Shown here in pieces: positions 2,301-24,151 of a stretch of DNA of 24,641 bases (positions within the stretch are counted from its first letter, which is position 1; each line of letters begins with the position of its first letter). A model generated the notes under the pieces. It made no database searches and was not told the DNA's origin. It was given only the letters and a program-made list of their open reading frames with translations. Origin of the DNA: Utricularia gibba (taxonomy: Eukaryota; Streptophyta; Magnoliopsida; Lamiales; Lentibulariaceae); assembly GCA_002189035.1 (NCBI GenBank), contig NEEC01000187.1:1-24641 (forward strand), in the 5' to 3' direction. Both the position numbers and the translations under genes were made by a program.

Positions 2301-3180
2301 ATAATCATGTGATATATGTTTATTAAAATATAAATAATGTAAATACGTTAGTTATTAAAGCATATACTACATGTGAAAGTTTCTTAGTTTTTAATTTTAT
2401 TAGCATTCGACCCTTAGTTATACTTTGGATGGAGTGTGCATTTTTATTTTAATCATTTTAATTAGCATTCGATCCTTGGTTAAGATTCCAATCGAGTGTA
2501 TATTTTTTTATTTGAACGATTCTATTTGCATTCGATTCTAAGATATGATGCGGATCGAGCGTATATTTTTTATTTTAATATTTTTATTGGCTTTCGGTCT
2601 TTAGACATGATTCGGATCGAGTGGAGATGGTTTACTTGAAACTTGTGTTAACGCTCGATCCTTAGGAGCAATGTGGAGCGTGTTTACATTGCAAGGGCAC
2701 ACGGGCGTGGGTTGTGCGTAAACCACGCCCATGGCAAATGTAATAAAAACTGCTCCTAACGGTGGAACGCTAATTAAGATTTAAAATAAATGAATATGCA
2801 CTCGATCCAAAGTATACCTAAGGATCTAAGGCTAATAAAAATATGAGAGTGAAAAATATACGCTCGATCCGCAGCATACCTAACGTTCGAATGCTAATAA
2901 AAATATTAAAATAAAAAATACGCGCTCGATCCGCATTATACTTAAGGATCGAATGATAATAAAAATATTTAAAGTAAAAAAATAGCAAATATGATCTGAA
3001 TCATAACCAAGGATCGAATGCTAATTAAATTGACTAAAGTAAAAATACACACTCCATCCAAAGTACAACTGAGGATCAAATGGTAATAATTAAGTCAAAG
3101 AAGCTTTCAGTTATCCTACGGTTTAATAAATAATGTATTTCAATTATTTATAATTTAATAAACCTATATCATATGATTAT
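2301..3180. repeat. Foldback-like inverted repeat, unit 2 (880 bp)
   Basis: The termini ataatcatgtgatatatg (2301-) and catatgattat (-3180) are near-perfect inverted copies. The right side of the apex (2731-2750) is altered, so only an 8-bp GGGCGTGG/CCACGCCC stem remains and the outer apical pairing is lost. Confidence 0.93.
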
Positions 3181-4638
3181 GATTAGAGATGGGCCTGGTT
3201 GGATCCATTCAGGTTCGGACCCAACCCGATGAAATTCTGGGTATTACAGTTTGCATGACCCATGGGGTTGTCTTTCTGTTCAACCCGAACGGGTTAAACC
3301 CTACGGGTTTTGATTGGGCCCGAACCGAACCAAGGGTTTATCAATTTTATTTTTTATTTTTGGCTTATTGTATTTTATGGTTGTTTTTCTTTTTTTCCAC
3401 GGCCGTATGGCCTTGTGGCTGCTGCTCGAGCACGCGGGCATTAACCAAGCCCATGTGGCCTCGTGGTGCTGCTGCGTATGCACACGGGCTGGGGGTCGCG
3501 CCGGGCATGAGCCCAAAGTCAGTTTTAGCCCGGCGAAAAAAGGGATGCATTTCTTAGCGTTGGGTTATCACGAGCCGCCTAATTTTTTTTCGTGGAACAC
3601 CATCTAGTTTTGTGGGGGGGCGCTCTCGAGGGGCCCTTGGCTTGGGCCCGGGTTCGGTCTGGCTGATGAGCCCACTCTGGTCCCACTCGGCGAAAATCGT
3701 GACACATTTGTTGAAATTAGGATGTCACGTGCACCCAACACGGTTTTTTCAACAACACGCTTTATACTTGTGGAGACGCTCTCGGGGGGCACTCGAATCT
3801 TCCCATACGTCGTACCAGGCTCGAGCGTAAAGTCATTGTAGCCCGGCAAAGAAAGTGATGCATTTATTAACTTTGGGTTGTCACGAGCCGCCTAAATGGT
3901 TTTCCATGGAACACCTTCTAGTTTTGGGGGGGAGGGGAGCGGCGCTGCGCCTCGTCCGGGCCCCGGGAGCCCGGTCCCGTCCGACTCGACGAAAATCGTG
4001 ATGCATTTGTTGAAGTTAGGATGTCACGAGAACCGCACACGGTTTTTTTCAACAACACACTTTATACTTAAGGAGGAGCTCTCGGTGGGGCACCCTGATC
4101 GAGCCGGAGGTCGTGCCGAACTCAGGCCCAAAGTCAGCAGTAGCGCGCCAAAAAAAGTGATGCATTTATTAACGTTGGGTTGTGACGAGACGCGTATATG
4201 GTTTTTGAAGGAACACCTCCTCGTATTGAGGCGGGCGCTCTCGAGGGGCCCTTGGCCCGGGCCCCGGGTTCGGACGGGCTCATGGGCCCACTCGACGAAA
4301 ATCATGATGCATTTGTTGAAATTGGGATGTCACGTGCACCCCACATTTGTTGAGCGAGGACGGCCAATTTTAGAGACTCGATGGGCCATTCTTCGATCAG
4401 CGTCCTACTATCTAGTTCAAACTCAAAGTCACATTATTCTTGCACAATTTCGTATGAATGAATATGGGATATGATCCGTTGGAAGCCCAAGTGTTAGAGA
4501 ATTTTACTGAATCTGCTGAGCAAGGGGTTGTGAGTTCATAACAGCTGTTGAAACCTCTCCAGGGTGGTGTGCGTGGCGTGATGAGCTTTCTACAATGACA
4601 AAAAAAATATTTTTATAATCATGTGATATATGTTTATT
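2325..4638 (+). repeat. Macrosatellite unit 2 (2314 bp)
   Basis: This is the shortest complete unit. The right side of the foldback apex is replaced by a shorter, different sequence at 2731-2750. A CA is missing in the agctttcagtt motif near 3107. The GC half has shortened G and C runs at 3645-3652 and 3936-3942. Like unit 1 it has gggcctggttgg (one G fewer) at the start of the GGGTT-rich segment. Confidence 0.95.
3526..4433 (+). repeat. GC-rich subrepeat block, unit 2
   Basis: Copies start at 3526, 3839 and 4141. A C lost in copy A and a G lost in copy B shift the local frames. Confidence 0.88.
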
Positions 4639-5500
4639 AAAATATAAATAATGTAAATACGTTAGTTATTAAAGCATATACTACATGTGAAAGTTTCTTA
4701 GTTTTTAATTTTATTAGCATTCGACCCTTAGTTATACTTTGGATGGAGTGTGCATTTTTATTTTAATCATTTTAATTAGCATTCGATCCTTGGTTAAGAT
4801 TCCAATCGAGTGTATATTTTTTATTTGAACGATTCTATTTGCATTCGATTCTAAGATATGATGCGGATCGAGCGTATATTTTTTATTTTAATATTTTTAT
4901 TGGCTTTCGGTCTTTAGACATGATTCGGATCGAGTGGAGATGGTTTACTTGAAACTTGTGTTAACGCTCGATCCTTAGGAGCAATGTGGAGCGTGTTTAC
5001 ATTGCAAGGGCACACGGGCGTGGGTTGTGCGTAAACCACGCCCGTGTGGCATGGCATTGTAATGTATACACGTTCTAAATTGCTCCTAACGGTGGAACGC
5101 TAATTAAGATTTAAAATAAATGAATATGCACTCGATCCAAAGTATACCTAAGGATCTAAGGCTAATAAAAATATGAGAGTGAAAAATATACGCTCGATCC
5201 GCAGCATACCTAACGTTCGAATGCTAATAAAAATATTACGCGCTCGATCCGCATTATACTTAAGGATCGAATGATAATAAAAATATTTAAAGTAAAAAAA
5301 TAGCAAATATGATCTGAATCATAACCAAGGATCGAATGCTAATTAAATTGACTAAAGTAAAAATACACACTCCATCCAAAGTACAACTGAGGATCAAATG
5401 GTAATAATTAAGTCAAAGAAGCTTTCACAGTTATCCTACGGTTTAATAAATAATGTATTTCAATTATTTATAATTTAATAAACCTATATCATATGATTAT
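4615..5500. repeat. Foldback-like inverted repeat, unit 3 (886 bp)
   Basis: Consensus apex and termini. It is 13 bp short in the A-rich spacer between two right-arm subrepeats near 5235. Confidence 0.94.
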
Positions 5501-6955
5501 GATTAGAGATGGGCCTGGGTTGGATCCATTCAGGTTCGGACCCAACCCGATGAAATTCTGGGTATTACAGTTTGCATGACCCATGGGGTTGTCTTTCTGT
5601 TCAACCCGAACGGGTTAAACCCTACGGGTTTTGATTGGGCCCGAACCGAACCAAGGGTTTATCAATTTTATTTTTTATTTTTGGCTTATTGTATTTTATG
5701 GTTGTTTTTCTTTTTTCCACGGCCGTATGGCCTTGTGGCTGCTGCTCGAGCACGCGGGCATTAACCAAGCCCATGTGGCCTCGTGGTGCTGCTGCGTATG
5801 CACACGGGCTGGGGGTCGCGCCGGGCATGAGCCCAAAGTCAGTTTTAGCCCGGCGAAAAAAGGGATGCATTTCTTAGCGTTGGGTTATCACGAGCCGCCT
5901 AATTTTTTTTCGTGGAACACCATCTAGTTTTGTGGGGGGGCGCTCTCGAGGGGCCCTTGGCTTGGGCCCCGGGTTCGGTCTGGCTGATGAGCCCACTCTG
6001 GTCCCACTCGGCGAAAATCGTGACACATTTGTTGAAATTAGGATGTCACGTGCACCCAACACGGTTTTTTCAACAACACGCTTTATACTTGTGGAGACGC
6101 TCTCGGGGGGCACTCGAATCTTCCCATACGTCGTACCAGGCTCGAGCGTAAAGTCATTGTAGCCCGGCAAAGAAAGTGATGCATTTATTAACTTTGGGTT
6201 GTCACGAGCCGCCTAAATGGTTTTCCATGGAACACCTTCTAGTTTTGGGGGGGAGGGGAGCGGGCGCTGCGCCTCGTCCGGGCCCGGGAGCCCGGTCCCG
6301 TCCGACTCGACGAAAATCGTGATGCATTTGTTGAAGTTAGGATGTCACGAGAACCGCACACGTTTTTTTCAACAACACACTTTATACTTAAGGAGGAGCT
6401 CTCGGTGGGGCACCCTGATCGGCCGGAGGTCGTGCCGAACTCAGGCCCAAAGTCAGCAGTAGCGCGCCAAAAAAAGTGATGCATTTATTAACGTTGGGTT
6501 GTGACGAGACGCGTATATGGTTTTTGAAGGAACACCTCCTCGTATTGAGGCGGGCGCTCTCGAGGGGCCCTTGGCCCGGGCCCCGGGTTCGGACGGGCTC
6601 ATGGGCCACTCGACGAAAATCATGATGCATTTGTTGAAATTGGGATGTCACGTGCACCCCACATTTGTTGAGCGAGGACGGCCAATTTTAGAGACTCGAT
6701 GGGCCATTCTTCGATCAGCGTCCTACTATCTAGTTCAAACTCAAAGTCACATTATTCTTGCACAATTTCGTATGAATGAATATGGGATATGATCCGTTGG
6801 AAGCCAAGTGTTAGAGAATTTTACTGAATCTGCTGAGCAAGGGGTTGTGAGTTCATAACAGCTGTTGAAACCTCTCCAGGGTGGTGTGCGTGGCGTGATG
6901 AGCTTTCTACAATGACAAAAAAAATATTTTTATAATCATGTGATATATGTTTATT
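4639..6955 (+). repeat. Macrosatellite unit 3 (2317 bp)
   Basis: It carries a 13-bp deletion in an A-rich spacer of the right foldback arm at about 5231-5238. It shares with unit 1 the variants gatcggccgg, aagccaag and cacacg followed by T7 (others have cacacgg followed by T7). Single-base losses in C runs at 6281-6290 and 6603-6609 break the reading frame that is open in units 4, 6 and 10. Confidence 0.95.
5846..6751 (+). repeat. GC-rich subrepeat block, unit 3
   Basis: Copies start at 5846, 6160 and 6460. It carries the variant set shared with unit 1 and two C-run losses. Confidence 0.88.
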
Positions 6956-7815
6956 AAAATATAAATAATGTAAATACGTTAGTTATTAAAGCATATACTA
7001 CATGTGAAAGTTTCTTAGTTTTTAATTTTATTAGCATTCGACCCTTAGTTATACTTTGGATGGAGTGTGCATTTTTATTTTAATCATTTTAATTAGCATT
7101 CGATCCTTGGTTAAGATTCCAATCGAGTGTATATTTTTTATTTGAACGATTCTATTTGCATTCGATTCTAAGATATGATGCGGATCGAGCGTATATTTTT
7201 TATTTTAATATTTTTATTGGCTTTCGGTCTTTAGACATGATTCGGATCGAGTGGAGATGGTTTACTTGAAACTTGTGTTAACGCTCGATCCTTAGGAGCA
7301 ATGTGGAGCGTGTTTACATTGCAAGGGCACACGGGCGTGGGTTGTGCGTAAACCACGCCCGTGTGGCATGGCATTGTAATGTATACACGTTCTAAATTGC
7401 TCCTAACGGTGGAACGCTAATTAAGATTTAAAATAAATGAATATGCACTCGATCCAAAGTATACCTAAGGATCTAAGGCTAATAAAAATATGAGAGTGAA
7501 AAATATACGCTCGATCCGCAGCATACCTAACGTTCGAATGCTAATAAAAAATACGCGCTCGATCCGCATTATACTTAAGGATCGAATGATAATAAAAATA
7601 TTTAAAGTAAAAAAATAGCAAATATGATCTGAATCATAACCAAGGATCGAATGCTAATTAAATTGACTAAAGTAAAAATACACACTCCATCCAAAGTACA
7701 ACTGAGGATCAAATGGTAATAATTAAGTCAAAGAAGCTTTCACAGTTATCCTACGGTTTAATAAATAATGTATTTCAATTATTTATAATTTAATAAACCT
7801 ATATCATATGATTAT
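6932..7815. repeat. Foldback-like inverted repeat, unit 4 (884 bp)
   Basis: Consensus apex and termini. It is short by 14 bp near 7547, at the same right-arm spacer as unit 3. Confidence 0.94.
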
Positions 7816-9276
7816 GATTAGAGATGGGCCTGGGTTGGATCCATTCAGGTTCGGACCCAACCCGATGAAATTCTGGGTATTACAGTTTGCATGACCCATG
7901 GGGTTGTCTTTCTGTTCAACCCGAACGGGTTAAACCCTACGGGTTTTGATTGGGCCCGAACCGAACCAAGGGTTTATCAATTTTATTTTTTATTTTTGGC
8001 TTATTGTATTTTATGGTTGTTTTTCTTTTTTTCCACGGCCGTATGGCCTTGTGGCTGCTGCTCGAGCACGCGGGCATTAACCAAGCCCATGTGGCCTCGT
8101 GGTGCTGCTGCGTATGCACACGGGCTGGGGGTCGCGCCGGGCATGAGCCCAAAGTCAGTTTTAGCCCGGCGAAAAAAGGGATGCATTTCTTAGCGTTGGG
8201 TTATCACGAGCCGCCTAATTTTTTTTCGTGGAACACCATCTAGTTTTGTGGGGGGGCGCTCTCGAGGGGCCCTTGGCTTGGGCCCCGGGTTCGGTCTGGC
8301 TGATGAGCCCACTCTGGTCCCACTCGGCGAAAATCGTGACACATTTGTTGAAATTAGGATGTCACGTGCACCCAACACGGTTTTTTCAACAACACGCTTT
8401 ATACTTGTGGAGACGCTCTCGGGGGGCACTCGAATCTTCCCATACGTCGTACCAGGCTCGAGCGTAAAGTCATTGTAGCCCGGCAAAGAAAGTGATGCAT
8501 TTATTAACTTTGGGTTGTCACGAGCCGCCTAAATGGTTTTCCATGGAACACCTTCTAGTTTTGGGGGGGAGGGGAGCGGGCGCTGCGCCTCGTCCGGGCC
8601 CCGGGAGCCCGGTCCCGTCCGACTCGACGAAAATCGTGATGCATTTGTTGAAGTTAGGATGTCACGAGAACCGCACACGGTTTTTTTCAACAACACACTT
8701 TATACTTAAGGAGGAGCTCTCGGTGGGGCACCCTGATCGAGCCGGAGGTCGTGCCGAACTCAGGCCCAAAGTCAGCAGTAGCGCGCCAAAAAAAGTGATG
8801 CATTTATTAACGTTGGGTTGTGACGAGACGCGTATATGGTTTTTGAAGGAACACCTCCTCGTATTGAGGCGGGCGCTCTCGAGGGGCCCTTGGCCCGGGC
8901 CCCGGGTTCGGACGGGCTCATGGGCCCACTCGACGAAAATCATGATGCATTTGTTGAAATTGGGATGTCACGTGCACCCCACATTTGTTGAGCGAGGACG
9001 GCCAATTTTAGAGACTCGATGGGCCATTCTTCGATCAGCGTCCTACTATCTAGTTCAAACTCAAAGTCACATTATTCTTGCACAATTTCGTATGAATGAA
9101 TATGGGATATGATCCGTTGGAAGCCCAAGTGTTAGAGAATTTTACTGAATCTGCTGAGCAAGGGGTTGTGAGTTCATAACAGCTGTTGAAACCTCTCCAG
9201 GGTGGTGTGCGTGGCGTGATGAGCTTTCTACAATGACAAAAAAAATATTTTTATAATCATGTGATATATGTTTATT
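6956..9276 (+). repeat. Macrosatellite unit 4 (2321 bp)
   Basis: It has a 14-bp deletion at about 7543-7552, in the same A-rich spacer of the right foldback arm that is shortened in unit 3 but with different endpoints. Otherwise it follows the majority sequence of units 5-10, and it carries the full 206-codon forward frame in its GC half. Confidence 0.95.
8162..9071 (+). repeat. GC-rich subrepeat block, unit 4
   Basis: Copies start at 8162, 8476 and 8779. The G run of copy B is seven long (8563-8569) and sits next to two further G runs. Confidence 0.88.
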
Positions 9277-10151
9277 AAAATATAAATAATGTAAATACGT
9301 TAGTTATTAAAGCATATACTACATGTGAAAGTTTCTTAGTTTTTAATTTTATTAGCATTCGACCCTTAGTTATACTTTGGATGGAGTGTGCATTTTTATT
9401 TTAATCATTTTAATTAGCATTCGATCCTTGGTTAAGATTCCAATCGAGTGTATATTTTTTATTTGAACGATTCTATTTGCATTCGATTCTAAGATATGAT
9501 GCGGATCGAGCGTATATTTTTTATTTTAATATTTTTATTGGCTTTCGGTCTTTAGACATGATTCGGATCGAGTGGAGATGGTTTACTTGAAACTTGTGTT
9601 AACGCTCGATCCTTAGGAGCAATGTGGAGCGTGTTTACATTGCAAGGGCACACGGGCGTGGGTTGTGCGTAAACCACGCCCGTGTGGCATGGCATTGTAA
9701 TGTATACACGTTCTAAATTGCTCCTAACGGTGGAACGCTAATTAAGATTTAAAATAAATGAATATGCACTCGATCCAAAGTATACCTAAGGATCTAAGGC
9801 TAATAAAAATATGAGAGTGAAAAATATACGCTCGATCCGCAGCATACCTAACGTTCGAATGCTAATAAAAAATATTAAAATAAAAAATACGCGCTCGATC
9901 CGCATTATACTTAAGGATCGAATGATAATAAAAATATTTAAAGTAAAAAAATAGCAAATATGATCTGAATCATAACCAAGGATCGAATGCTAATTAAATT
10001 GACTAAAGTAAAAATACACACTCCATCCAAAGTACAACTGAGGATCAAATGGTAATAATTAAGTCAAAGAAGCTTTCACAGTTATCCTACGGTTTAATAA
10101 ATAATGTATTTCAATTATTTATAATTTAATAAACCTATATCATATGATTAT
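9253..10151. repeat. Foldback-like inverted repeat, unit 5 (899 bp)
   Basis: Full-length consensus copy, matching units 6-9 in length, with an intact apical stem and the 5-left/6-right arrangement of 62-bp subrepeats. Confidence 0.95.
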
Positions 10152-11607
10152 GATTAGAGATGGGCCTGGGTTGGATCCATTCAGGTTCGGACCCAACCCG
10201 ATGAAATTCTGGGTATTACAGTTTGCATGACCCATGGGGTTGTCTTTCTGTTCAACCCGAACGGGTTAAACCCTACGGGTTTTGATTGGGCCCGAACCGA
10301 ACCAAGGGTTTATCAATTTTATTTTTATTTTTGGCTTATTGTATTTTATGGTTGTTTTTTTTTTTCCACGGCCGTATGGCCTTGTGGCTGCTGCTCGAGC
10401 ACGCGGGCATTAACCAAGCCCATGTGGCCTCGTGGTGCTGCTGCGTATGCACACGGGCTGGGGGTCGCGCCGGGCATGAGCCCAAAGTCAGTTTTAGCCC
10501 GGCGAAAAAAGGGATGCATTTCTTAGCGTTGGGTTATCACGAGCCGCCTAATTTTTTTTCGTGGAACACCATCTAGTTTTGTGGGGGGGCGCTCTCGAGG
10601 GGCCCTTGGCTTGGGCCCCGGGTTCGGTCTGGCTGATGAGCCCACTCTGGTCCCACTCGGCGAAAATCGTGACACATTTGTTGAAATTAGGATGTCACGT
10701 GCACCCAACACGGTTTTTTCAACAACACGCTTTATACTTGTGGAGACGCTCTCGGGGGGCACTCGAATCTTCCCATACGTCGTACCAGGCTCGAGCGTAA
10801 AGTCATTGTAGCCCGGCAAAGAAAGTGATGCATTTATTAACTTTGGGTTGTCACGAGCCGCCTAAATGGTTTTCCATGGAACACCTTCTAGTTTTGGGGG
10901 GGAGGGGAGCGGGCGCTGCGCCTCGTCCGGGCCCCGGGAGCCCGGTCCCGTCCGACTCGACGAAAATCGTGATGCATTTGTTGAAGTTAGGATGTCACGA
11001 GAACCGCACACGGTTTTTTTCAACAACACACTTTATACTTAAGGAGGAGCTCTCGGGGGGCACCCTGATCGAGCCGGAGGTCGTGCCGAACTCAGGCCCA
11101 AAGTCAGCAGTAGCGCGCCAAAAAAAGTGATGCATTTATTAACGTTGGGTTGTGACGAGACGCGTATATGGTTTTTGAAGGAACACCTCCTCGTATTGAG
11201 GCGGGCGCTCTCGAGGGGCCCTTGGCCCGGGCCCCGGGTTCGGACGGGCTCATGGGCCCACTCGACGAAAATCATGATGCATTTGTTGAAATTGGGATGT
11301 CACGTGCACCCCACATTTGTTGAGCGAGGACGGCCAATTTTAGAGACTCGATGGGCCATTCTTCGATCAGCGTCCTACTATCTAGTTCAAACTCAAAGTC
11401 ACATTATTCTTGCACAATTTCGTATGAATGAATATGGGATATGATCCGTTGGAAGCCCAAGTGTTAGAGAATTTTACTGAATCTGCTGAGCAAGGGGTTG
11501 TGAGTTCATAACAGCTGTTGAAACCTCTCCAGGGTGGTGTGCGTGGCGTGATGAGCTTTCTACAATGACAAAAAAAATTTTTTATAATCATGTGATATAT
11601 GTTTATT
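9277..11607 (+). repeat. Macrosatellite unit 5 (2331 bp)
   Basis: Majority type. Local differences are a shortened T-rich tract at 10316-10335, an uninterrupted T run at 10352-10365 where other copies have a C, a TG loss at about 11055 that shifts the forward frame, and an altered A/T run just upstream of the next foldback at about 11571-11583. Confidence 0.95.
10495..11403 (+). repeat. GC-rich subrepeat block, unit 5
   Basis: Copies start at 10495, 10809 and 11111. The end of copy B reads ctctcggggggcac rather than ctctcggtggggcac, as in unit 1. Confidence 0.88.
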
Positions 11608-12482
11608 AAAATATAAATAATGTAAATACGTTAGTTATTAAAGCATATACTACATGTGAAAGTTTCTTAGTTTTTAATTTTATTAGCATTCGACCCTTAG
11701 TTATACTTTGGATGGAGTGTGCATTTTTATTTTAATCATTTTAATTAGCATTCGATCCTTGGTTAAGATTCCAATCGAGTGTATATTTTTTATTTGAACG
11801 ATTCTATTTGCATTCGATTCTAAGATATGATGCGGATCGAGCGTATATTTTTTATTTTAATATTTTTATTGGCTTTCGGTCTTTAGACATGATTCGGATC
11901 GAGTGGAGATGGTTTACTTGAAACTTGTGTTAACGCTCGATCCTTAGGAGCAATGTGGAGCGTGTTTACATTGCAAGGGCACACGGGCGTGGGTTGTGCG
12001 TAAACCACGCCCGTGTGGCATGGCATTGTAATGTATACACGTTCTAAATTGCTCCTAACGGTGGAACGCTAATTAAGATTTAAAATAAATGAATATGCAC
12101 TCGATCCAAAGTATACCTAAGGATCTAAGGCTAATAAAAATATGAGAGTGAAAAATATACGCTCGATCCGCAGCATACCTAACGTTCGAATGCTAATAAA
12201 AAATATTAAAATAAAAAATACGCGCTCGATCCGCATTATACTTAAGGATCGAATGATAATAAAAATATTTAAAGTAAAAAAATAGCAAATATGATCTGAA
12301 TCATAACCAAGGATCGAATGCTAATTAAATTGACTAAAGTAAAAATACACACTCCATCCAAAGTACAACTGAGGATCAAATGGTAATAATTAAGTCAAAG
12401 AAGCTTTCACAGTTATCCTACGGTTTAATAAATAATGTATTTCAATTATTTATAATTTAATAAACCTATATCATATGATTAT
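11584..12482. repeat. Foldback-like inverted repeat, unit 6 (899 bp)
   Basis: Full-length consensus copy. The A/T run immediately to its left differs from the other copies, but the left terminus itself is intact. Confidence 0.95.
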
Positions 12483-13940
12483 GATTAGAGATGGGCCTGG
12501 GTTGGATCCATTCAGGTTCGGACCCAACCCGATGAAATTCTGGGTATTACAGTTTGCATGACCCATGGGGTTGTCTTTCTGTTCAACCCGAACGGGTTAA
12601 ACCCTACGGGTTTTGATTGGGCCCGAACCGAACCAAGGGTTTATCAATTTTATTTTTTATTTTTGGCTTATTGTATTTTATGGTTGTTTTCTTTTTTCCA
12701 CGGCCGTATGGCCTTGTGGCTGCTGCTCGAGCACGCGGGCATTAACCAAGCCCATGTGGCCTCGTGGTGCTGCTGCGTATGCACACGGGCTGGGGGTCGC
12801 GCCGGGCATGAGCCCAAAGTCAGTTTTAGCCCGGCGAAAAAAGGGATGCATTTCTTAGCGTTGGGTTATCACGAGCCGCCTAATTTTTTTTCGTGGAACA
12901 CCATCTAGTTTTGTGGGGGGGCGCTCTCGAGGGGCCCTTGGCTTGGGCCCCGGGTTCGGTCTGGCTGATGAGCCCACTCTGGTCCCACTCGGCGAAAATC
13001 GTGACACATTTGTTGAAATTAGGATGTCACGTGCACCCAACACGGTTTTTTCAACAACACGCTTTATACTTGTGGAGACGCTCTCGGGGGCACTCGAATC
13101 TTCCCATACGTCGTACCAGGCTCGAGCGTAAAGTCATTGTAGCCCGGCAAAGAAAGTGATGCATTTATTAACTTTGGGTTGTCACGAGCCGCCTAAATGG
13201 TTTTCCATGGAACACCTTCTAGTTTTGGGGGGGAGGGGAGCGGGCGCTGCGCCTCGTCCGGGCCCCGGGAGCCCGGTCCCGTCCGACTCGACGAAAATCG
13301 TGATGCATTTGTTGAAGTTAGGATGTCACGAGAACCGCACACGGTTTTTTTCAACAACACACTTTATACTTAAGGAGGAGCTCTCGGTGGGGCACCCTGA
13401 TCGAGCCGGAGGTCGTGCCGAACTCAGGCCCAAAGTCAGCAGTAGCGCGCCAAAAAAAGTGATGCATTTATTAACGTTGGGTTGTGACGAGACGCGTATA
13501 TGGTTTTTGAAGGAACACCTCCTCGTATTGAGGCGGGCGCTCTCGAGGGGCCCTTGGCCCGGGCCCCGGGTTCGGACGGGCTCATGGGCCCACTCGACGA
13601 AAATCATGATGCATTTGTTGAAATTGGGATGTCACGTGCACCCCACATTTGTTGAGCGAGGACGGCCAATTTTAGAGACTCGATGGGCCATTCTTCGATC
13701 AGCGTCCTACTATCTAGTTCAAACTCAAAGTCACATTATTCTTGCACAATTTCGTATGAATGAATATGGGATATGATCCGTTGGAAGCCCAAGTGTTAGA
13801 GAATTTTACTGAATCTGCTGAGCAAGGGGTTGTGAGTTCATAACAGCTGTTGAAACCTCTCCAGGGTGGTGTGCGTGGCGTGATGAGCTTTCTACAATGA
13901 CAAAAAAAATATTTTTATAATCATGTGATATATGTTTATT
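11608..13940 (+). repeat. Macrosatellite unit 6 (2333 bp)
   Basis: Majority type. It has one G fewer in the run at 13085-13090, which shortens the reverse-strand frame that is 98 codons long in most copies. The T-rich tract at 12640-12698 is also slightly shorter. Confidence 0.96.
12827..13735 (+). repeat. GC-rich subrepeat block, unit 6
   Basis: Copies start at 12827, 13140 and 13443. Copy A is one base short in its distal G run. Confidence 0.88.
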
Positions 13941-14014
13941 AAAATATAAATAATGTAAATACGTTAGTTATTAAAGCATATACTACATGTGAAAGTTTCT
14001 TAGTTTTTAATTTT

Positions 14015-14282
14015 ATTAGCATTCGACCCTTAGTTATACTTTGGATGGAGTGTGCATTTTTATTTTAATCATTTTAATTAGCATTCGATCCTTGGTTAAG
14101 ATTCCAATCGAGTGTATATTTTTTATTTGAACGATTCTATTTGCATTCGATTCTAAGATATGATGCGGATCGAGCGTATATTTTTTATTTTAATATTTTT
14201 ATTGGCTTTCGGTCTTTAGACATGATTCGGATCGAGTGGAGATGGTTTACTTGAAACTTGTGTTAACGCTCGATCCTTAGGA
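14015..14282 (+). repeat. Left-arm 62-bp tandem subrepeats (five copies)
   Basis: Copies start at 14015, 14077, 14139, 14201 and 14262 (spacings 62, 62, 62, 61), each at an attagcattcga-like motif (attggctttcgg and gttaacgctcg in the last two). Each copy reads roughly GCATTCGATCCTTAG, a variable middle of about 10 bases, GGATCGAGTG, then a T-rich spacer. The inner CGATCC and GGATCG are themselves inverted, so each subrepeat is a small imperfect palindrome within the large one. The arrangement recurs in every unit. Confidence 0.88.
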
Positions 14283-14387
14283 GCAATGTGGAGCGTGTTT
14301 ACATTGCAAGGGCACACGGGCGTGGGTTGTGCGTAAACCACGCCCGTGTGGCATGGCATTGTAATGTATACACGTTCTAAATTGCTC
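14281..14387. repeat. Foldback apex: perfect 13-bp GC-rich stem with 12-base loop
   Basis: The stem cacacgggcgtgg (14313-14325) pairs with ccacgcccgtgtg (14338-14350). Outer pairing joins gagcaat (14281-14287) to attgctc (14381-14387) through gcgtgtttacattgc and its near-complement. This is the only GC-rich segment in the AT-rich palindrome. The CACACGGGCGTG motif resembles sequences common in plant retrotransposon DNA, but I cannot assign it to a family. Confidence 0.88.
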
Positions 14388-14400
14388 CTAACGGTGGAAC

Positions 14401-14720
14401 GCTAATTAAGATTTAAAATAAATGAATATGCACTCGATCCAAAGTATACCTAAGGATCTAAGGCTAATAAAAATATGAGAGTGAAAAATATACGCTCGAT
14501 CCGCAGCATACCTAACGTTCGAATGCTAATAAAAAATATTAAAATAAAAAATACGCGCTCGATCCGCATTATACTTAAGGATCGAATGATAATAAAAATA
14601 TTTAAAGTAAAAAAATAGCAAATATGATCTGAATCATAACCAAGGATCGAATGCTAATTAAATTGACTAAAGTAAAAATACACACTCCATCCAAAGTACA
14701 ACTGAGGATCAAATGGTAAT
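14401..14720 (-). repeat. Right-arm 62-bp tandem subrepeats (six copies)
   Basis: The mirror of the left arm: the gctaat-type motifs end at 14406, 14468, 14530, 14593, 14658 and 14720, spaced 62-65 bp. There are six copies against five on the left, so one is unpaired. By similarity the odd copy is the one ending at 14530, because the left copies at 14139 and 14201 match best to those ending at 14593 and 14468. Confidence 0.85.
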
Positions 14721-14815
14721 AATTAAGTCAAAGAAGCTTTCACAGTTATCCTACGGTTTAATAAATAATGTATTTCAATTATTTATAATTTAATAAACCT
14801 ATATCATATGATTAT

Positions 14816-14972
14816 GATTAGAGATGGGCCTGGGTTGGATCCATTCAGGTTCGGACCCAACCCGATGAAATTCTGGGTATTACAGTTTGCATGACCCATG
14901 GGGTTGTCTTTCTGTTCAACCCGAACGGGTTAAACCCTACGGGTTTTGATTGGGCCCGAACCGAACCAAGGG
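14816..14972. repeat. GGGTT/AACCC-rich segment, possible hAT-type remnant
   Basis: The segment starts tagagatgggcctgggttgg and contains several self-complementary motifs: gggttgg (14832-14838) with ccaaccc (14857-14863), and aacccg-aa-cgggtt (14918-14931), followed by gggcccgaaccgaacc. Runs of this kind after a TAGAGATGGG-like start are frequent at the ends of non-autonomous hAT elements in plants, by general knowledge. I see no matching opposite terminus or 8-bp duplication, so the assignment is weak. It holds the once-per-unit BamHI-type site and recurs in all eleven units. Confidence 0.4.
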
Positions 14973-15032
14973 TTTATCAATTTTATTTTTTATTTTTGGC
15001 TTATTGTATTTTATGGTTGTTTTTCTTTTTTT
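14973..15032 (+). repeat. T-rich low-complexity tract
   Basis: A tract of about 60 bases of T with scattered A and G, ending in T runs whose length varies between units (for example 10352-10365, 12686-12698, 19689-19703). It separates the AT-rich and GC-rich parts of the unit and is a likely site of slippage or sequencing error. Confidence 0.85.
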
Positions 15033-15161
15033 CCACGGCCGTATGGCCTTGTGGCTGCTGCTCGAGCACGCGGGCATTAACCAAGCCCATGTGGCCTCGT
15101 GGTGCTGCTGCGTATGCACACGGGCTGGGGGTCGCGCCGGGCATGAGCCCAAAGTCAGTTT
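15033..15161. repeat. GC-rich lead-in, partial degenerate subrepeat
   Basis: It starts with the palindrome acggccgt (15035-15042) and carries gtggctgctgctcgagcac-type sequence. Its last 45 or so bases (gggtcgcgccgggcatgagc, then ccaaagtcag) align with the end of the second 300-bp subrepeat (ggtcgtgccgaactcaggcc, then caaagtcag), so it looks like the worn 3' part of a further subrepeat ahead of the first recognisable one. Confidence 0.6.
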
Positions 15162-16070
15162 TAGCCCGGCGAAAAAAGGGATGCATTTCTTAGCGTTGGG
15201 TTATCACGAGCCGCCTAATTTTTTTTCGTGGAACACCATCTAGTTTTGTGGGGGGGCGCTCTCGAGGGGCCCTTGGCTTGGGCCCCGGGTTCGGTCTGGC
15301 TGATGAGCCCACTCTGGTCCCACTCGGCGAAAATCGTGACACATTTGTTGAAATTAGGATGTCACGTGCACCCAACACGGTTTTTTCAACAACACGCTTT
15401 ATACTTGTGGAGACGCTCTCGGGGGGCACTCGAATCTTCCCATACGTCGTACCAGGCTCGAGCGTAAAGTCATTGTAGCCCGGCAAAGAAAGTGATGCAT
15501 TTATTAACTTTGGGTTGTCACGAGCCGCCTAAATGGTTTTCCATGGAACACCTTCTAGTTTTGGGGGGAGGGGAGCGGGCGCTGCGCCTCGTCCGGGCCC
15601 CGGGAGCCCGGTCCCGTCCGACTCGACGAAAATCGTGATGCATTTGTTGAAGTTAGGATGTCACGAGAACCGCACACGGTTTTTTTCAACAACACACTTT
15701 ATACTTAAGGAGGAGCTCTCGGTGGGGCACCCTGATCGAGCCGGAGGTCGTGCCGAACTCAGGCCCAAAGTCAGCAGTAGCGCGCCAAAAAAAGTGATGC
15801 ATTTATTAACGTTGGGTTGTGACGAGACGCGTATATGGTTTTTGAAGGAACACCTCCTCGTATTGAGGCGGGCGCTCTCGAGGGGCCCTTGGCCCGGGCC
15901 CCGGGTTCGGACGGGCTCATGGGCCCACTCGACGAAAATCATGATGCATTTGTTGAAATTGGGATGTCACGTGCACCCCACATTTGTTGAGCGAGGACGG
16001 CCAATTTTAGAGACTCGATGGGCCATTCTTCGATCAGCGTCCTACTATCTAGTTCAAACTCAAAGTCACA
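15162..16070 (+). repeat. GC-rich subrepeat block, unit 7: three ~300-bp copies, six ~150-bp halves
   Basis: The ~300-bp copies are A 15162-15475, B 15476-15777 and C 15778-16070, each opening with tagcccggc or tagcgcgcc. Each has two related halves that share a core like cgaaaa..gtgatgcatttgttgaa.ttgggatgtcacg. The half cores start near 15170, 15328, 15484, 15627, 15786 and 15933, spaced 143-159 bp. The first half of each copy continues into ggaacacc..ctagtttt and a G run. The second halves of A and B continue into cacacggttttttcaacaac and ctttatact, while that of C diverges after cacatttgttgagcg. No RNA or protein function is evident. Confidence 0.9.
15190..15486 (-). other. 98-codon reverse-strand frame in subrepeat A (probably not a gene)
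   Basis: The same 98-codon frame is open in units 1, 3, 4, 5, 7, 8 and 9 and shortened in units 2, 6 and 10 by single-base changes. It begins at TTG (15486-15484), not ATG, which is a poor start for a nuclear gene. The product is basic and proline-rich with no domain I recognise. Its recurrence reflects homogenisation of the array, not demonstrated selection. Confidence 0.15.
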
Positions 16071-16251
16071 TTATTCTTGCACAATTTCGTATGAATGAAT
16101 ATGGGATATGATCCGTTGGAAGCCCAAGTGTTAGAGAATTTTACTGAATCTGCTGAGCAAGGGGTTGTGAGTTCATAACAGCTGTTGAAACCTCTCCAGG
16201 GTGGTGTGCGTGGCGTGATGAGCTTTCTACAATGACAAAAAAAATATTTTT
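16071..16251. other. ~180-bp segment between subrepeats and next foldback
   Basis: This is the only part of the unit without obvious internal repetition. It holds a 25-codon ATG frame (16101-16178, reading MGYDPLEAQVLENFTESAEQ and five more residues) with an in-frame stop just upstream, and after its TAA the same frame stays open for 18 more codons. A one-base loss in units 1 and 3 breaks it, so I do not call it a gene. The segment ends in an A8/T-rich stretch before the foldback. Equivalent segments precede every foldback except that of unit 1, which is outside the window. It could be a captured exon fragment or ordinary satellite sequence. Confidence 0.5.
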
Positions 16252-17150
16252 ATAATCATGTGATATATGTTTATTAAAATATAAATAATGTAAATACGTT
16301 AGTTATTAAAGCATATACTACATGTGAAAGTTTCTTAGTTTTTAATTTTATTAGCATTCGACCCTTAGTTATACTTTGGATGGAGTGTGCATTTTTATTT
16401 TAATCATTTTAATTAGCATTCGATCCTTGGTTAAGATTCCAATCGAGTGTATATTTTTTATTTGAACGATTCTATTTGCATTCGATTCTAAGATATGATG
16501 CGGATCGAGCGTATATTTTTTATTTTAATATTTTTATTGGCTTTCGGTCTTTAGACATGATTCGGATCGAGTGGAGATGGTTTACTTGAAACTTGTGTTA
16601 ACGCTCGATCCTTAGGAGCAATGTGGAGCGTGTTTACATTGCAAGGGCACACGGGCGTGGGTTGTGCGTAAACCACGCCCGTGTGGCATGGCATTGTAAT
16701 GTATACACGTTCTAAATTGCTCCTAACGGTGGAACGCTAATTAAGATTTAAAATAAATGAATATGCACTCGATCCAAAGTATACCTAAGGATCTAAGGCT
16801 AATAAAAATATGAGAGTGAAAAATATACGCTCGATCCGCAGCATACCTAACGTTCGAATGCTAATAAAAAATATTAAAATAAAAAATACGCGCTCGATCC
16901 GCATTATACTTAAGGATCGAATGATAATAAAAATATTTAAAGTAAAAAAATAGCAAATATGATCTGAATCATAACCAAGGATCGAATGCTAATTAAATTG
17001 ACTAAAGTAAAAATACACACTCCATCCAAAGTACAACTGAGGATCAAATGGTAATAATTAAGTCAAAGAAGCTTTCACAGTTATCCTACGGTTTAATAAA
17101 TAATGTATTTCAATTATTTATAATTTAATAAACCTATATCATATGATTAT
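16252..17150. repeat. Foldback-like inverted repeat, unit 8 (899 bp)
   Basis: Consensus copy, matching the unit 7 foldback in length, apex and subrepeat arrangement. Confidence 0.95.
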
Positions 17151-18610
17151 GATTAGAGATGGGCCTGGGTTGGATCCATTCAGGTTCGGACCCAACCCGA
17201 TGAAATTCTGGGTATTACAGTTTGCATGACCCATGGGGTTGTCTTTCTGTTCAACCCGAACGGGTTAAACCCTACGGGTTTTGATTGGGCCCGAACCGAA
17301 CCAAGGGTTTATCAATTTTATTTTTTATTTTTGGCTTATTGTATTTTATGGTTGTTTTTCTTTTTTTCCACGGCCGTATGGCCTTGTGGCTGCTGCTCGA
17401 GCACGCGGGCATTAACCAAGCCCATGTGGCCTCGTGGTGCTGCTGCGTATGCACACGGGCTGGGGGTCGCGCCGGGCATGAGCCCAAAGTCAGTTTTAGC
17501 CCGGCGAAAAAAGGGATGCATTTCTTAGCGTTGGGTTATCACGAGCCGCCTAATTTTTTTTCGTGGAACACCATCTAGTTTTGTGGGGGGGCGCTCTCGA
17601 GGGGCCCTTGGCTTGGGCCCCGGGTTCGGTCTGGCTGATGAGCCCACTCTGGTCCCACTCGGCGAAAATCGTGACACATTTGTTGAAATTAGGATGTCAC
17701 GTGCACCCAACACGGTTTTTTCAACAACACGCTTTATACTTGTGGAGACGCTCTCGGGGGGCACTCGAATCTTCCCATACGTCGTACCAGGCTCGAGCGT
17801 AAAGTCATTGTAGCCCGGCAAAGAAAGTGATGCATTTATTAACTTTGGGTTGTCACGAGCCGCCTAAATGGTTTTCCATGGAACACCTTCTAGTTTTGGG
17901 GGGAGGGGAGCGGGCGCTGCGCCTCGTCCGGGCCCCGGGAGCCCGGTCCCGTCCGACTCGACGAAAATCGTGATGCATTTGTTGAAGTTAGGATGTCACG
18001 AGAACCGCACACGGTTTTTTTCAACAACACACTTTATACTTAAGGAGGAGCTCTCGGTGGGGCACCCTGATCGAGCCGGAGGTCGTGCCGAACTCAGGCC
18101 CAAAGTCAGCAGTAGCGCGCCAAAAAAAGTGATGCATTTATTAACGTTGGGTTGTGACGAGACGCGTATATGGTTTTTGAAGGAACACCTCCTCGTATTG
18201 AGGCGGGCGCTCTCGAGGGGCCCTTGGCCCGGGCCCCGGGTTCGGACGGGCTCATGGGCCCACTCGACGAAAATCATGATGCATTTGTTGAAATTGGGAT
18301 GTCACGTGCACCCCACATTTGTTGAGCGAGGACGGCCAATTTTAGAGACTCGATGGGCCATTCTTCGATCAGCGTCCTACTATCTAGTTCAAACTCAAAG
18401 TCACATTATTCTTGCACAATTTCGTATGAATGAATATGGGATATGATCCGTTGGAAGCCCAAGTGTTAGAGAATTTTACTGAATCTGCTGAGCAAGGGGT
18501 TGTGAGTTCATAACAGCTGTTGAAACCTCTCCAGGGTGGTGTGCGTGGCGTGATGAGCTTTCTACAATGACAAAAAAAATATTTTTATAATCATGTGATA
18601 TATGTTTATT
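16276..18610 (+). repeat. Macrosatellite unit 8 (2335 bp)
   Basis: Same length as unit 7, with the same homopolymer lengths in the T-rich tract and in both G runs of the GC half. It looks like a very recent duplicate or conversion product of unit 7. Confidence 0.97.
17497..18405 (+). repeat. GC-rich subrepeat block, unit 8
   Basis: Copies start at 17497, 17811 and 18113, with the same internal lengths as unit 7. Confidence 0.88.
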
Positions 18611-19485
18611 AAAATATAAATAATGTAAATACGTTAGTTATTAAAGCATATACTACATGTGAAAGTTTCTTAGTTTTTAATTTTATTAGCATTCGACCCT
18701 TAGTTATACTTTGGATGGAGTGTGCATTTTTATTTTAATCATTTTAATTAGCATTCGATCCTTGGTTAAGATTCCAATCGAGTGTATATTTTTTATTTGA
18801 ACGATTCTATTTGCATTCGATTCTAAGATATGATGCGGATCGAGCGTATATTTTTTATTTTAATATTTTTATTGGCTTTCGGTCTTTAGACATGATTCGG
18901 ATCGAGTGGAGATGGTTTACTTGAAACTTGTGTTAACGCTCGATCCTTAGGAGCAATGTGGAGCGTGTTTACATTGCAAGGGCACACGGGCGTGGGTTGT
19001 GCGTAAACCACGCCCGTGTGGCATGGCATTGTAATGTATACACGTTCTAAATTGCTCCTAACGGTGGAACGCTAATTAAGATTTAAAATAAATGAATATG
19101 CACTCGATCCAAAGTATACCTAAGGATCTAAGGCTAATAAAAATATGAGAGTGAAAAATATACGCTCGATCCGCAGCATACCTAACGTTCGAATGCTAAT
19201 AAAAAATATTAAAATAAAAAATACGCGCTCGATCCGCATTATACTTAAGGATCGAATGATAATAAAAATATTTAAAGTAAAAAAATAGCAAATATGATCT
19301 GAATCATAACCAAGGATCGAATGCTAATTAAATTGACTAAAGTAAAAATACACACTCCATCCAAAGTACAACTGAGGATCAAATGGTAATAATTAAGTCA
19401 AAGAAGCTTTCACAGTTATCCTACGGTTTAATAAATAATGTATTTCAATTATTTATAATTTAATAAACCTATATCATATGATTAT
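18587..19485. repeat. Foldback-like inverted repeat, unit 9 (899 bp)
   Basis: Consensus copy with intact apex and termini. Confidence 0.95.
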
Positions 19486-20945
19486 GATTAGAGATGGGCC
19501 TGGGTTGGATCCATTCAGGTTCGGACCCAACCCGATGAAATTCTGGGTATTACAGTTTGCATGACCCATGGGGTTGTCTTTCTGTTCAACCCGAACGGGT
19601 TAAACCCTACGGGTTTTGATTGGGCCCGAACCGAACCAAGGGTTTATCAATTTTATTTTTTATTTTTGGCTTATTGTATTTTATGGTTGTTTTTCTTTTT
19701 TTTCCACGGCCGTATGGCCTTGTGGCTGCTGCTCGAGCACGCGGGCATTAACCAAGCCCATGTGGCCTCGTGGTGCTGCTGCGTATGCACACGGGCTGGG
19801 GGTCGCGCCGGGCATGAGCCCAAAGTCAGTTTTAGCCCGGCGAAAAAAGGGATGCATTTCTTAGCGTTGGGTTATCACGAGCCGCCTAATTTTTTTTCGT
19901 GGAACACCATCTAGTTTTGTGGGGGGGCGCTCTCGAGGGGCCCTTGGCTTGGGCCCCGGGTTCGGTCTGGCTGATGAGCCCACTCTGGTCCCACTCGGCG
20001 AAAATCGTGACACATTTGTTGAAATTAGGATGTCACGTGCACCCAACACGGTTTTTTCAACAACACGCTTTATACTTGTGGAGACGCTCTCGGGGGGCAC
20101 TCGAATCTTCCCATACGTCGTACCAGGCTCGAGCGTAAAGTCATTGTAGCCCGGCAAAGAAAGTGATGCATTTATTAACTTTGGGTTGTCACGAGCCGCC
20201 TAAATGGTTTTCCATGGAACACCTTCTAGTTTTGGGGGGAGGGGAGCGGGCGCTGCGCCTCGTCCGGGCCCCGGGAGCCCGGTCCCGTCCGACTCGACGA
20301 AAATCGTGATGCATTTGTTGAAGTTAGGATGTCACGAGAACCGCACACGGTTTTTTTCAACAACACACTTTATACTTAAGGAGGAGCTCTCGGTGGGGCA
20401 CCCTGATCGAGCCGGAGGTCGTGCCGAACTCAGGCCCAAAGTCAGCAGTAGCGCGCCAAAAAAAGTGATGCATTTATTAACGTTGGGTTGTGACGAGACG
20501 CGTATATGGTTTTTGAAGGAACACCTCCTCGTATTGAGGCGGGCGCTCTCGAGGGGCCCTTGGCCCGGGCCCCGGGTTCGGACGGGCTCATGGGCCCACT
20601 CGACGAAAATCATGATGCATTTGTTGAAATTGGGATGTCACGTGCACCCCACATTTGTTGAGCGAGGACGGCCAATTTTAGAGACTCGATGGGCCATTCT
20701 TCGATCAGCGTCCTACTATCTAGTTCAAACTCAAAGTCACATTATTTTGCACAATTTCGTATGAATGAATATGGGATATGATCCGTTGGAAGCCCAAGTG
20801 TTAGAGAATTTTACTGAATCTGCTGAGCAAGGGGTTGTGAGTTCATAACAGCTGTTGAAACCTCTCCAGGGTGGTGTGCGTGGCGTGATGAGCTTTCTAC
20901 AATGACAAAAAAAATATTTTTATAATCATGTGATATATGTTTATT
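18611..20945 (+). repeat. Macrosatellite unit 9 (2335 bp)
   Basis: It differs from unit 7 by one extra T in the T-rich tract at about 19696-19703 and one missing C at about 20746, which cancel in length. The second change truncates the forward open frame (20204-20764). Confidence 0.97.
19833..20741 (+). repeat. GC-rich subrepeat block, unit 9
   Basis: Copies start at 19833, 20147 and 20449, with the same internal lengths as units 7 and 8. Confidence 0.88.
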
Positions 20946-21822
20946 AAAATATAAATAATGTAAATACGTTAGTTATTAAAGCATATACTACATGTGAAAG
21001 TTTCTTAGTTTTTAATTTTATTAGCATTCGACCCTTAGTTATACTTTGGATGGAGTGTGCATTTTTATTTTAATCATTTTAATTAGCATTCGATCCTTGG
21101 TTAAGATTCCAATCGAGTGTATATTTTTTATTTGAACGATTCTATTTGCATTCGATTCTAAGATATGATGCGGATCGAGCGTATATTTTTTATTTTAATA
21201 TTTTTATTGGCTTTCGGTCTTTAGACATGATTCGGATCGAGTGGAGATGGTTTACTTGAAACTTGTGTTAACGCTCGATCCTTAGGAGCAATGTGGAGCG
21301 TGTTTACATTGCAAGGGCACACGGGCGTGGGTTGTGCGTAAACCACGCCCGTGTGGCATGGCATTGTAATGTATACACGTTCTAAATTGCTCCTAACGGT
21401 GGAACGCTAATTAAGATTTAAAATAAATGAATATGCACTCGATCCAAAGTATACCTAAGGATCTAAGGCTAATAAAAATATGAGAGTGAAAAATATACGC
21501 TCGATCCGCAGCATACCTAACGTTCGAATGCTAATAAAAAATATTAAAATAAAAAATACGCGCTCGATCCGCATTATACTTAAGGATCGAATGATAATAA
21601 AAATATTTAAAGTAAAAAAATAGCAAATATGATCTCTGAATCATAACCAAGGATCGAATGCTAATTAAATTGACTAAAGTAAAAATACACACTCCATCCA
21701 AAGTACAACTGAGGATCAAATGGTAATAATTAAGTCAAAGAAGCTTTCACAGTTATCCTACGGTTTAATAAATAATGTATTTCAATTATTTATAATTTAA
21801 TAAACCTATATCATATGATTAT
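20922..21822. repeat. Foldback-like inverted repeat, unit 10 (901 bp)
   Basis: Consensus copy with two extra bases (CT) at about 21635, between right-arm subrepeats. Confidence 0.95.
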
Positions 21823-23256: not shown

Positions 23257-24151
23257 ATAATCATGTGATATATGTTTATTAAAATATAAATAATGTAAAT
23301 ACGTTAGTTATTAAAGCATATACTACATGTGAAAGTTTCTTAGTTTTTAATTTTATTAGCATTCGACCCTTAGTTATACTTTGGATGGAGTGTGCATTTT
23401 TATTTTAATCATTTTAATTAGCATTCGATCCTTGGTTAAGATTCCAATCGAGTGTATATTTTTTATTTGAACGATTCTATTTGCATTCGATTCTAAGATA
23501 TGATGCGGATCGAGCGTATATTTTTTTATTTAATATTTTTATTGGCTTTCGGTCTTTAGACATGATTCGGATCGAGTGGAGATGGTTTACTTGAAACTTG
23601 TGTTAACGCTCGATCCTTAGGAGCAATGTGGAGCGTGTTTACATTGCAAGGGCACACGGGCGTGGGTGCGTAAACCACGCCCGTGTGGCATGGCATTGTA
23701 ATGTATACACGTTCTAAATTGCTCCTAACGGTGGAACGCTAATTAAGATTTAAAATAAATGAATATGCACTCGATCCAAAGTATACCTAAGGATCTAAGG
23801 CTAATAAAAATATGAGAGTGAAAAATATACGCTCGATCCGCAGCATACCTAACGTTCGAATGCTAATAAAAAATATTAAAATAAAAAATACGCGCTCGAT
23901 CCGCATTACTTAAGGATCGAATGATAATAAAAATATTTAAAGTAAAAAAATAGCAAATATGATCTGAATCATAACCAAGGATCGAATGCTAATTAAATTG
24001 ACTAAAGTAAAAATACACACTCCATCCAAAGTACAACTGAGGATCAAATGGTAATAATTAAGTCAAAGAAGCTTTCACAGTTATCCCTACGGTTTAATAA
24101 ATAATGTATTTCAATTATTTATAATTTAATAAACCTATATCATATGATTAT
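23257..24151. repeat. Foldback-like inverted repeat, unit 11 (895 bp)
   Basis: Complete copy. Three bases are lost from the apical loop, yet the 13-bp stem 23653-23665/23675-23687 is fully kept. TA is missing near 23907, and the A/T composition at 23521-23530 is slightly changed. Confidence 0.94.

Follow-up and report, generated by a model that had tools for sequence, protein, structure and literature searches.

Every unit of a tandem array in Utricularia gibba carries a palindrome of about 900 bp, which raises the questions of where this structure came from and how it has persisted in series. The window analysed here is a stretch of 24,641 nucleotides that makes up the entire contig NEEC01000187.1 (C215) and consists of a single array of a 2.31–2.34 kb unit. 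The genome comprises 100.09 Mb in 516 contigs, and the evidence assembled below indicates that the palindrome is probably a decaying transposon foldback, passively carried in a satellite that is a mosaic of transposon sequences.

The array and its palindrome

A first-pass annotation of this DNA counted eleven palindromes at 2.33 kb spacing. The spacing holds, at 2314–2335 bp from start to start, but only ten copies are whole and the eleventh is cut by the contig start. The cut copy occupies positions 1–875; the whole ones are the reference copy at 13917–14815 and those at 2301–3180, 4615–5500, 6932–7815, 9253–10151, 11584–12482, 16252–17150, 18587–19485, 20922–21822 and 23257–24151. The copies are near-identical to the reference, as is the remainder of each unit, with differences that are almost only indels and are, we infer, long-read errors. 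Across the genome, a 41-base word from the loop gave 206 matches (62 + 144, at most one mismatch), which at 2.335 kb per unit corresponds to about 0.48 Mb of satellite. These matches and the near-identity of the window units reveal the long homogeneous head-to-tail arrays that characterise a satellite. At least 17 contigs carry the array, and the stretches fetched from C403, C404 and C258 consist of array only; collapse or misassembly may have affected the contigs that carry it. Within the window, indels are commoner toward the contig ends (2301–7815 and 20922–24151), as expected of low-coverage long-read consensus.

The palindrome itself is real and spans 13917–14815, where single-stranded DNA folds into a hairpin of −230.2 kcal/mol, compared with −79.8 ± 5.25 kcal/mol in dinucleotide shuffles (z = −28.6, n = 20). 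Fold and arm alignment together define a left arm on the forward strand (13917–14331), which runs from an AT-rich outer end through ∼62 bp tandem subrepeats (14010–14238) to an inner junction with a GC-rich core, and a right arm on the reverse strand (14332–14815), an inverted copy with ∼62/125 bp tandem subrepeats at 14387–14617 that is longer than the left arm by about one ∼62 bp subrepeat. The window palindrome thus has long inverted arms and, within them, tandem subrepeats, as foldback elements do. An Rfam search of the window gave no RNA family match at the gathering threshold.

The arms had been described as complementary along nearly their whole length. A hairpin does form, but the arms match at only 329 of 412 ungapped columns (79.9%), with seven gaps between them and a longest perfect run of 26 bases. 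When the 75 gap columns are counted, the match falls to 329 of 487 (67.6%), a measure on which a shuffled right arm scores 47.0% (sd 1.1, 50 shuffles). At the centre, the innermost stem (14299–14328 with 14335–14364) leaves a gap of six bases instead of the proposed 12-base loop, and the GC-rich core module that it forms (14299–14364) is itself a small hairpin. Palindrome instability generally requires near-perfect arms. Since the arms here are only about 80% identical and nowhere perfectly paired beyond 26 bases, this is not a classically unstable near-perfect palindrome, and the paradox seen in the stability of so long and nearly spacerless a structure was overstated.

Borders of the palindrome and the rest of the unit

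The palindrome is followed by the remainder of the unit (14816–15986), which includes GC-rich direct repeats of ∼300 bp (TRF match at 10650–11315 in an earlier unit), and then by a fragment (15987–16233, forward strand) with homology to the C-terminal portion of a PIF/Harbinger transposase gene and 84–92% DNA identity to Harbinger copies. The open reading frame at 15533–16108 had no Pfam match at E 0.01, and the link between the unit and Harbinger is one of DNA homology only. Pieces of 14816–15986 are also found near arm copies at three other loci (L030, L032 and L033), while an exact 29-nt word of the GC-rich ∼300 bp repeat had no genome matches and was an uninformative probe.

Upstream of position 13917, the corresponding copy of the transposase fragment lies at about 13652–13898, and the short segment 13899–13916 (forward strand) is a deletion junction between this fragment and the arm. 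Comparison with the related element L012 identified it: L012 retains ∼190 bp that are absent from the unit, with GCAACAATTA at both edges of the deletion, and loss between these 10 bp direct repeats accounts for the unit's shorter distance from transposase to arm. The left flank, a transposase fragment from Harbinger, meets the arm at a deletion, so the left border of the palindrome is a continuation of transposon sequence and not an insertion site. The right border is abrupt, the arm meeting unrelated GC-rich sequence, and 'TAGAGATGGG' at this border was considered as a candidate hAT-like end.

Such a border would suit a discrete foldback transposon that jumped into an ancestral 1.44 kb satellite unit and was amplified with it, as first proposed, and so would the foldback anatomy and the dispersed relatives described below. 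However, the flanks of the window palindrome share no word of five or more bases that could be a target duplication. The left border, moreover, continues the arm's Harbinger context into a flank that is itself Harbinger DNA. A search for a unit-like sequence lacking the element, made with one 31-nt empty-site junction pattern that leaves absence unproven, found no genome matches at up to three mismatches. We therefore consider an insertion into a pre-existing unit unlikely. A self-moving foldback as the inserted element was set aside on account of the continuity of the left flank with transposon sequence, and because the target-duplication test failed and no empty site was found, we do not class the window copy as the insertion of a foldback transposon, even though its source is foldback-bearing sequence.

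Two loci outside the array on contig C402, where the array border is at 2,605,372, retain parts of the unit in other arrangements. L032, about 8–10 kb outside the array, keeps the right-border junction of the unit along with GC-rich pieces at 93–96% identity and an interrupted palindrome, and represents a remnant of the unit. In L033, about 27 kb beyond the border, GC-rich unit sequence is followed by the spacer lost from the unit and then by the arm, without the transposase fragment.

Arm relatives in two transposon contexts

A subrepeat word from the arms had 26 exact matches in the genome, none of which (0/26) lies inside the main-array unit, and a second arm word had 25 matches with at most one mismatch; the reversed control of each had none. 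Thirty loci were fetched from arm-word matches (L001–L011 and L018–L036), including the two that adjoin the C402 array.

PIF/Harbinger transposons are recognised by characteristic ends and a 3 bp TTA/TAA target. Two relatives, L012 and L013, are ∼5 kb elements with matching GGCCGTGTTTGGTA-type ends and 3 bp TAA/TTA target duplications, and L012 encodes a DDE transposase (DDE_Tnp_4, PF13359, E 4.4e-12). Harbinger-type ends are present on both sides of these two elements and on one side of L035; around the satellite unit in array loci L015, L016 and L037, neither Harbinger terminal inverted repeats nor a 3 bp duplication was found. In the Harbinger copies, the outer ∼130 bp of the arm follow directly behind the transposase; the spacer at this place in L002, L003 and L006 matches the arm end of the unit at 87–90% identity. 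L012 interrupts a sequence that has an integrase core domain and is presumably of Gypsy type. When L012 1657–8325 is compared with L015 3875–5568, the latter is an uninterrupted paralogue of 71–75% identity, situated next to the satellite border.

The second context is Mutator-like. Here an outer arm flank is common to 13 distinct places, counting L008 and L014 as one, and extends over the full 720 bp in 12 of them and over 586 bp in L011. Two locus pairs, L026/L027 and L028/L029, are duplicates of two insertions, since their outer flanks are identical within each pair. A word from the 5′ end gave 12 matches with up to three mismatches. Mutator-like elements generate target duplications of 9–11 bp. 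Both ends are in view in only three of the 13 copies, and 10 bp duplications flank two of these (L009 and L022) and not the third (L014). Both L009 and L022 contain short hairpin modules in tandem.

About 240 bp, made up of 110 bp of flank and ∼130 bp of arm, are common to the two transposon contexts, at 87–90% identity in most pairs. Among the loci examined, none of the Harbinger copies has both arms, which leaves the founder unseen; either PIF/Harbinger or a Mutator-like element may have been the first carrier of the arm.

Dispersed foldbacks and the age of the inversion

Inverted arm pairs occur in five of the 30 dispersed loci (L001, L005, L024, L025 and L034, with the unit relic L032 excluded). 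Foldback copies are hence dispersed outside the array, putatively mobile as one unit, and with the paired arms and the ∼62 bp subrepeats they support the foldback-transposon anatomy recognised in the first-pass annotation. That annotation also proposed a search for solo copies with flanking target duplications; dispersed foldbacks were found, with no convincing duplication at their borders: across seven trial borders of the five foldbacks, shared words were of 0 or 6–7 bases, a length reached by at least 8% of random place pairs.

Some of these loci are composite. The foldback loop of L005 holds a hairpin-like insert at about 1590–1903, with mirrored ends AGGGTGTAGTCTGTGTGAC / GTCACACAGACTACACCCT identified by eye. 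In L001 (1093–1848) and L025 (991–1585), 85% and 78% self-complementary, respectively, the ∼62 bp arms are nested in the middle of a further foldback whose outer repeats differ and are of the GGTGTCT...AGACACC type.

Of 22 inner-arm segments extracted, 18 were placed in a tree of 135 columns; the four left out were two from a second L001 site and two second copies from contig C349, which carries a variant of the unit. A 100/100 branch splits five rows from the other 13. The five comprise L032 and four single arms, namely the left ones of the unit and the C349 variant and one from each of L034 and L001. The arms opposite to these four are among the 13. With arms of the unit and of two dispersed foldbacks lying on either side of this branch, the inversion is probably older than the satellite, the opposite arms having split before the loci did. 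The fit of L001, which had been labelled 'other' beforehand, is an after-the-fact reading, and a third foldback does not fit the split, both L024 arms being among the 13. Side labels set in advance clustered no more than shuffled ones did (for all groups together, 30 of 200 shuffles were as low; 113, 84 and 312 of 500 for the groups Mside, distal and other, respectively).

Loop variation, arm drift and array borders

Ten palindromes were recovered from C349, eight of 1015–1022 bp, one of 957 bp and one of 895 bp. The length steps correspond to one ∼62 bp core module, of which the loop holds three, two or one. The loop is thus variable, and the near-spacerless palindrome represents one of its states. 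Long cores are also present in L024 and L034. The array on C349 (L037–L041) changes orientation at 25–33 kb and at 38.8 kb, and a partial unit of 87% identity together with non-unit sequence lies between 25.4 and 32.7 kb.

Beyond the core, at least three of the ten C349 copies depart from the main unit at 14 positions, two of them in unpaired columns and 12 in paired ones. At eight of the 12 paired sites the main unit lacks pairing, and at the other four C349 does. No two of these sites are partners, and there are no compensatory changes among them between the main unit and C349. One reading of this comparison, which is unpolarised and has no computed expectation, is that the arms are drifting apart in both lineages; as the 12 differences are unpolarised, C349 may instead have gained pairing. 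Gained pairing at the eight sites could be taken as a sign that selection keeps the hairpin, for example as a source of double-stranded and small RNA or as a protein-binding array, and the near-identity of the window copies and the recurrence of tandem hairpin modules in Mutator-like L009 and L022 could be read in the same way. Against this, no compensatory pair distinguishes the satellite variants and the remainder of the unit shows the same near-identity, which makes selection on the hairpin an improbable explanation.

Array borders were readable in seven places, one on C402 and six on C349. If the palindrome had driven amplification through breakage or cruciform extrusion, as was also suggested, borders might concentrate within it, and four of the seven do lie there; the changes of array orientation on C349 would agree with this mechanism. 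However, 2.7 borders would be expected from the palindrome's 38% share of the unit, so that four, located by approximate BLAST edges, are no clear excess and provide no evidence for such a role. One orientation change, moreover, falls outside the palindrome (unit 1650/1085), and the arms are only about 80% identical. We regard this mechanism as highly improbable.

Proposed origin of the satellite

The reading that we favour is that of a decaying foldback carried along in a transposon-mosaic satellite. In the order of events that we infer, an old foldback drawn from non-coding DNA-transposon sequence would have come to adjoin a broken PIF/Harbinger transposase gene, and the entire mosaic would later have been amplified as the 2.33 kb satellite, by unequal exchange, rolling circle or a similar process. 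The hairpin would have no present function; it would persist because its arms have diverged too far to act like a perfect palindrome and because homogenisation of the unit includes them.

Comparison with known systems

The closest precedent is Tetris, a foldback transposon of Drosophila virilis with its TIR-220 satellite; its authors suggest that the transposon belongs to the Mutator superfamily (PMC4079207). Like the palindrome described here, Tetris is a foldback with tandem subrepeats in its arms, and it fed a satellite; in Tetris it was internal 220 bp arm repeats that were amplified (PMC4079207), whereas here each unit retains the whole foldback together with GC-rich sequence and a fragment of Harbinger transposase.

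Among plant foldbacks, MuTAnT of Medicago and FARE of Arabidopsis have been assigned to the Mutator-like elements, according to PMC4486113, through which alone FARE is cited. As described there, they share with our relatives modular inverted repeats that form a hairpin, and the 9 bp target duplications of MuTAnT compare with 10 bp in two of the Mutator-like relatives (PMC4486113). In contrast to MuTAnT and FARE, the relatives have internal repeats and ends that are only loosely alike, and Harbinger copies too contain the outer portion of the arm. The resemblance to PIF/Harbinger lies in the DDE_Tnp_4 domain of L012 and in the GGCCGTGTTTGGTA-type ends and 3 bp TTA/TAA duplications of L012 and L013. 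The satellite unit differs in keeping only a transposase fragment and spacer, and array loci L015, L016 and L037 have no such ends.

More broadly, tandem arrays founded from pieces of mobile elements are described in PMC7004042 and PMC12628747. The title of the former stresses repeats derived from retrotransposons, while here the recognised sources are DNA transposons and a foldback is present in each monomer. In titles and abstract openings from the literature on foldback satellites, Mutator-like elements and U. gibba satellites or centromeres, this repeat is undescribed, which does not imply that it is unpublished.

Implications for the U. gibba genome

The first 600 bases of C402 (L048), at the far end of this satellite-ending contig, look GC-rich and contain no telomere repeat. 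Among the matches listed, TTTAGGG telomere repeats stand at the beginning of C1, C2 and C3, and C3 has them also near 5.35 Mb.

By loop-word count, the repeat amounts to about 0.48 Mb of satellite in a species whose putative centromeric regions reportedly lack satellite repeats, as stated in a passage of PMC8333044 that cites its reference 15. A more far-reaching and rather doubtful possibility is that a hairpin-rich non-coding module, its outer ∼240 bp common to unrelated PIF/Harbinger and Mutator-like elements, spread, formed foldbacks and founded a major satellite; the array may then come from the centromere or its surroundings and be so far unplaced. The U. gibba genome offers a readable series from dispersed foldback through diverged relics beside the array and a variable-loop contig to a homogeneous satellite, and this suggests that divergence of the arms allows a long inverted repeat to survive in tandem.
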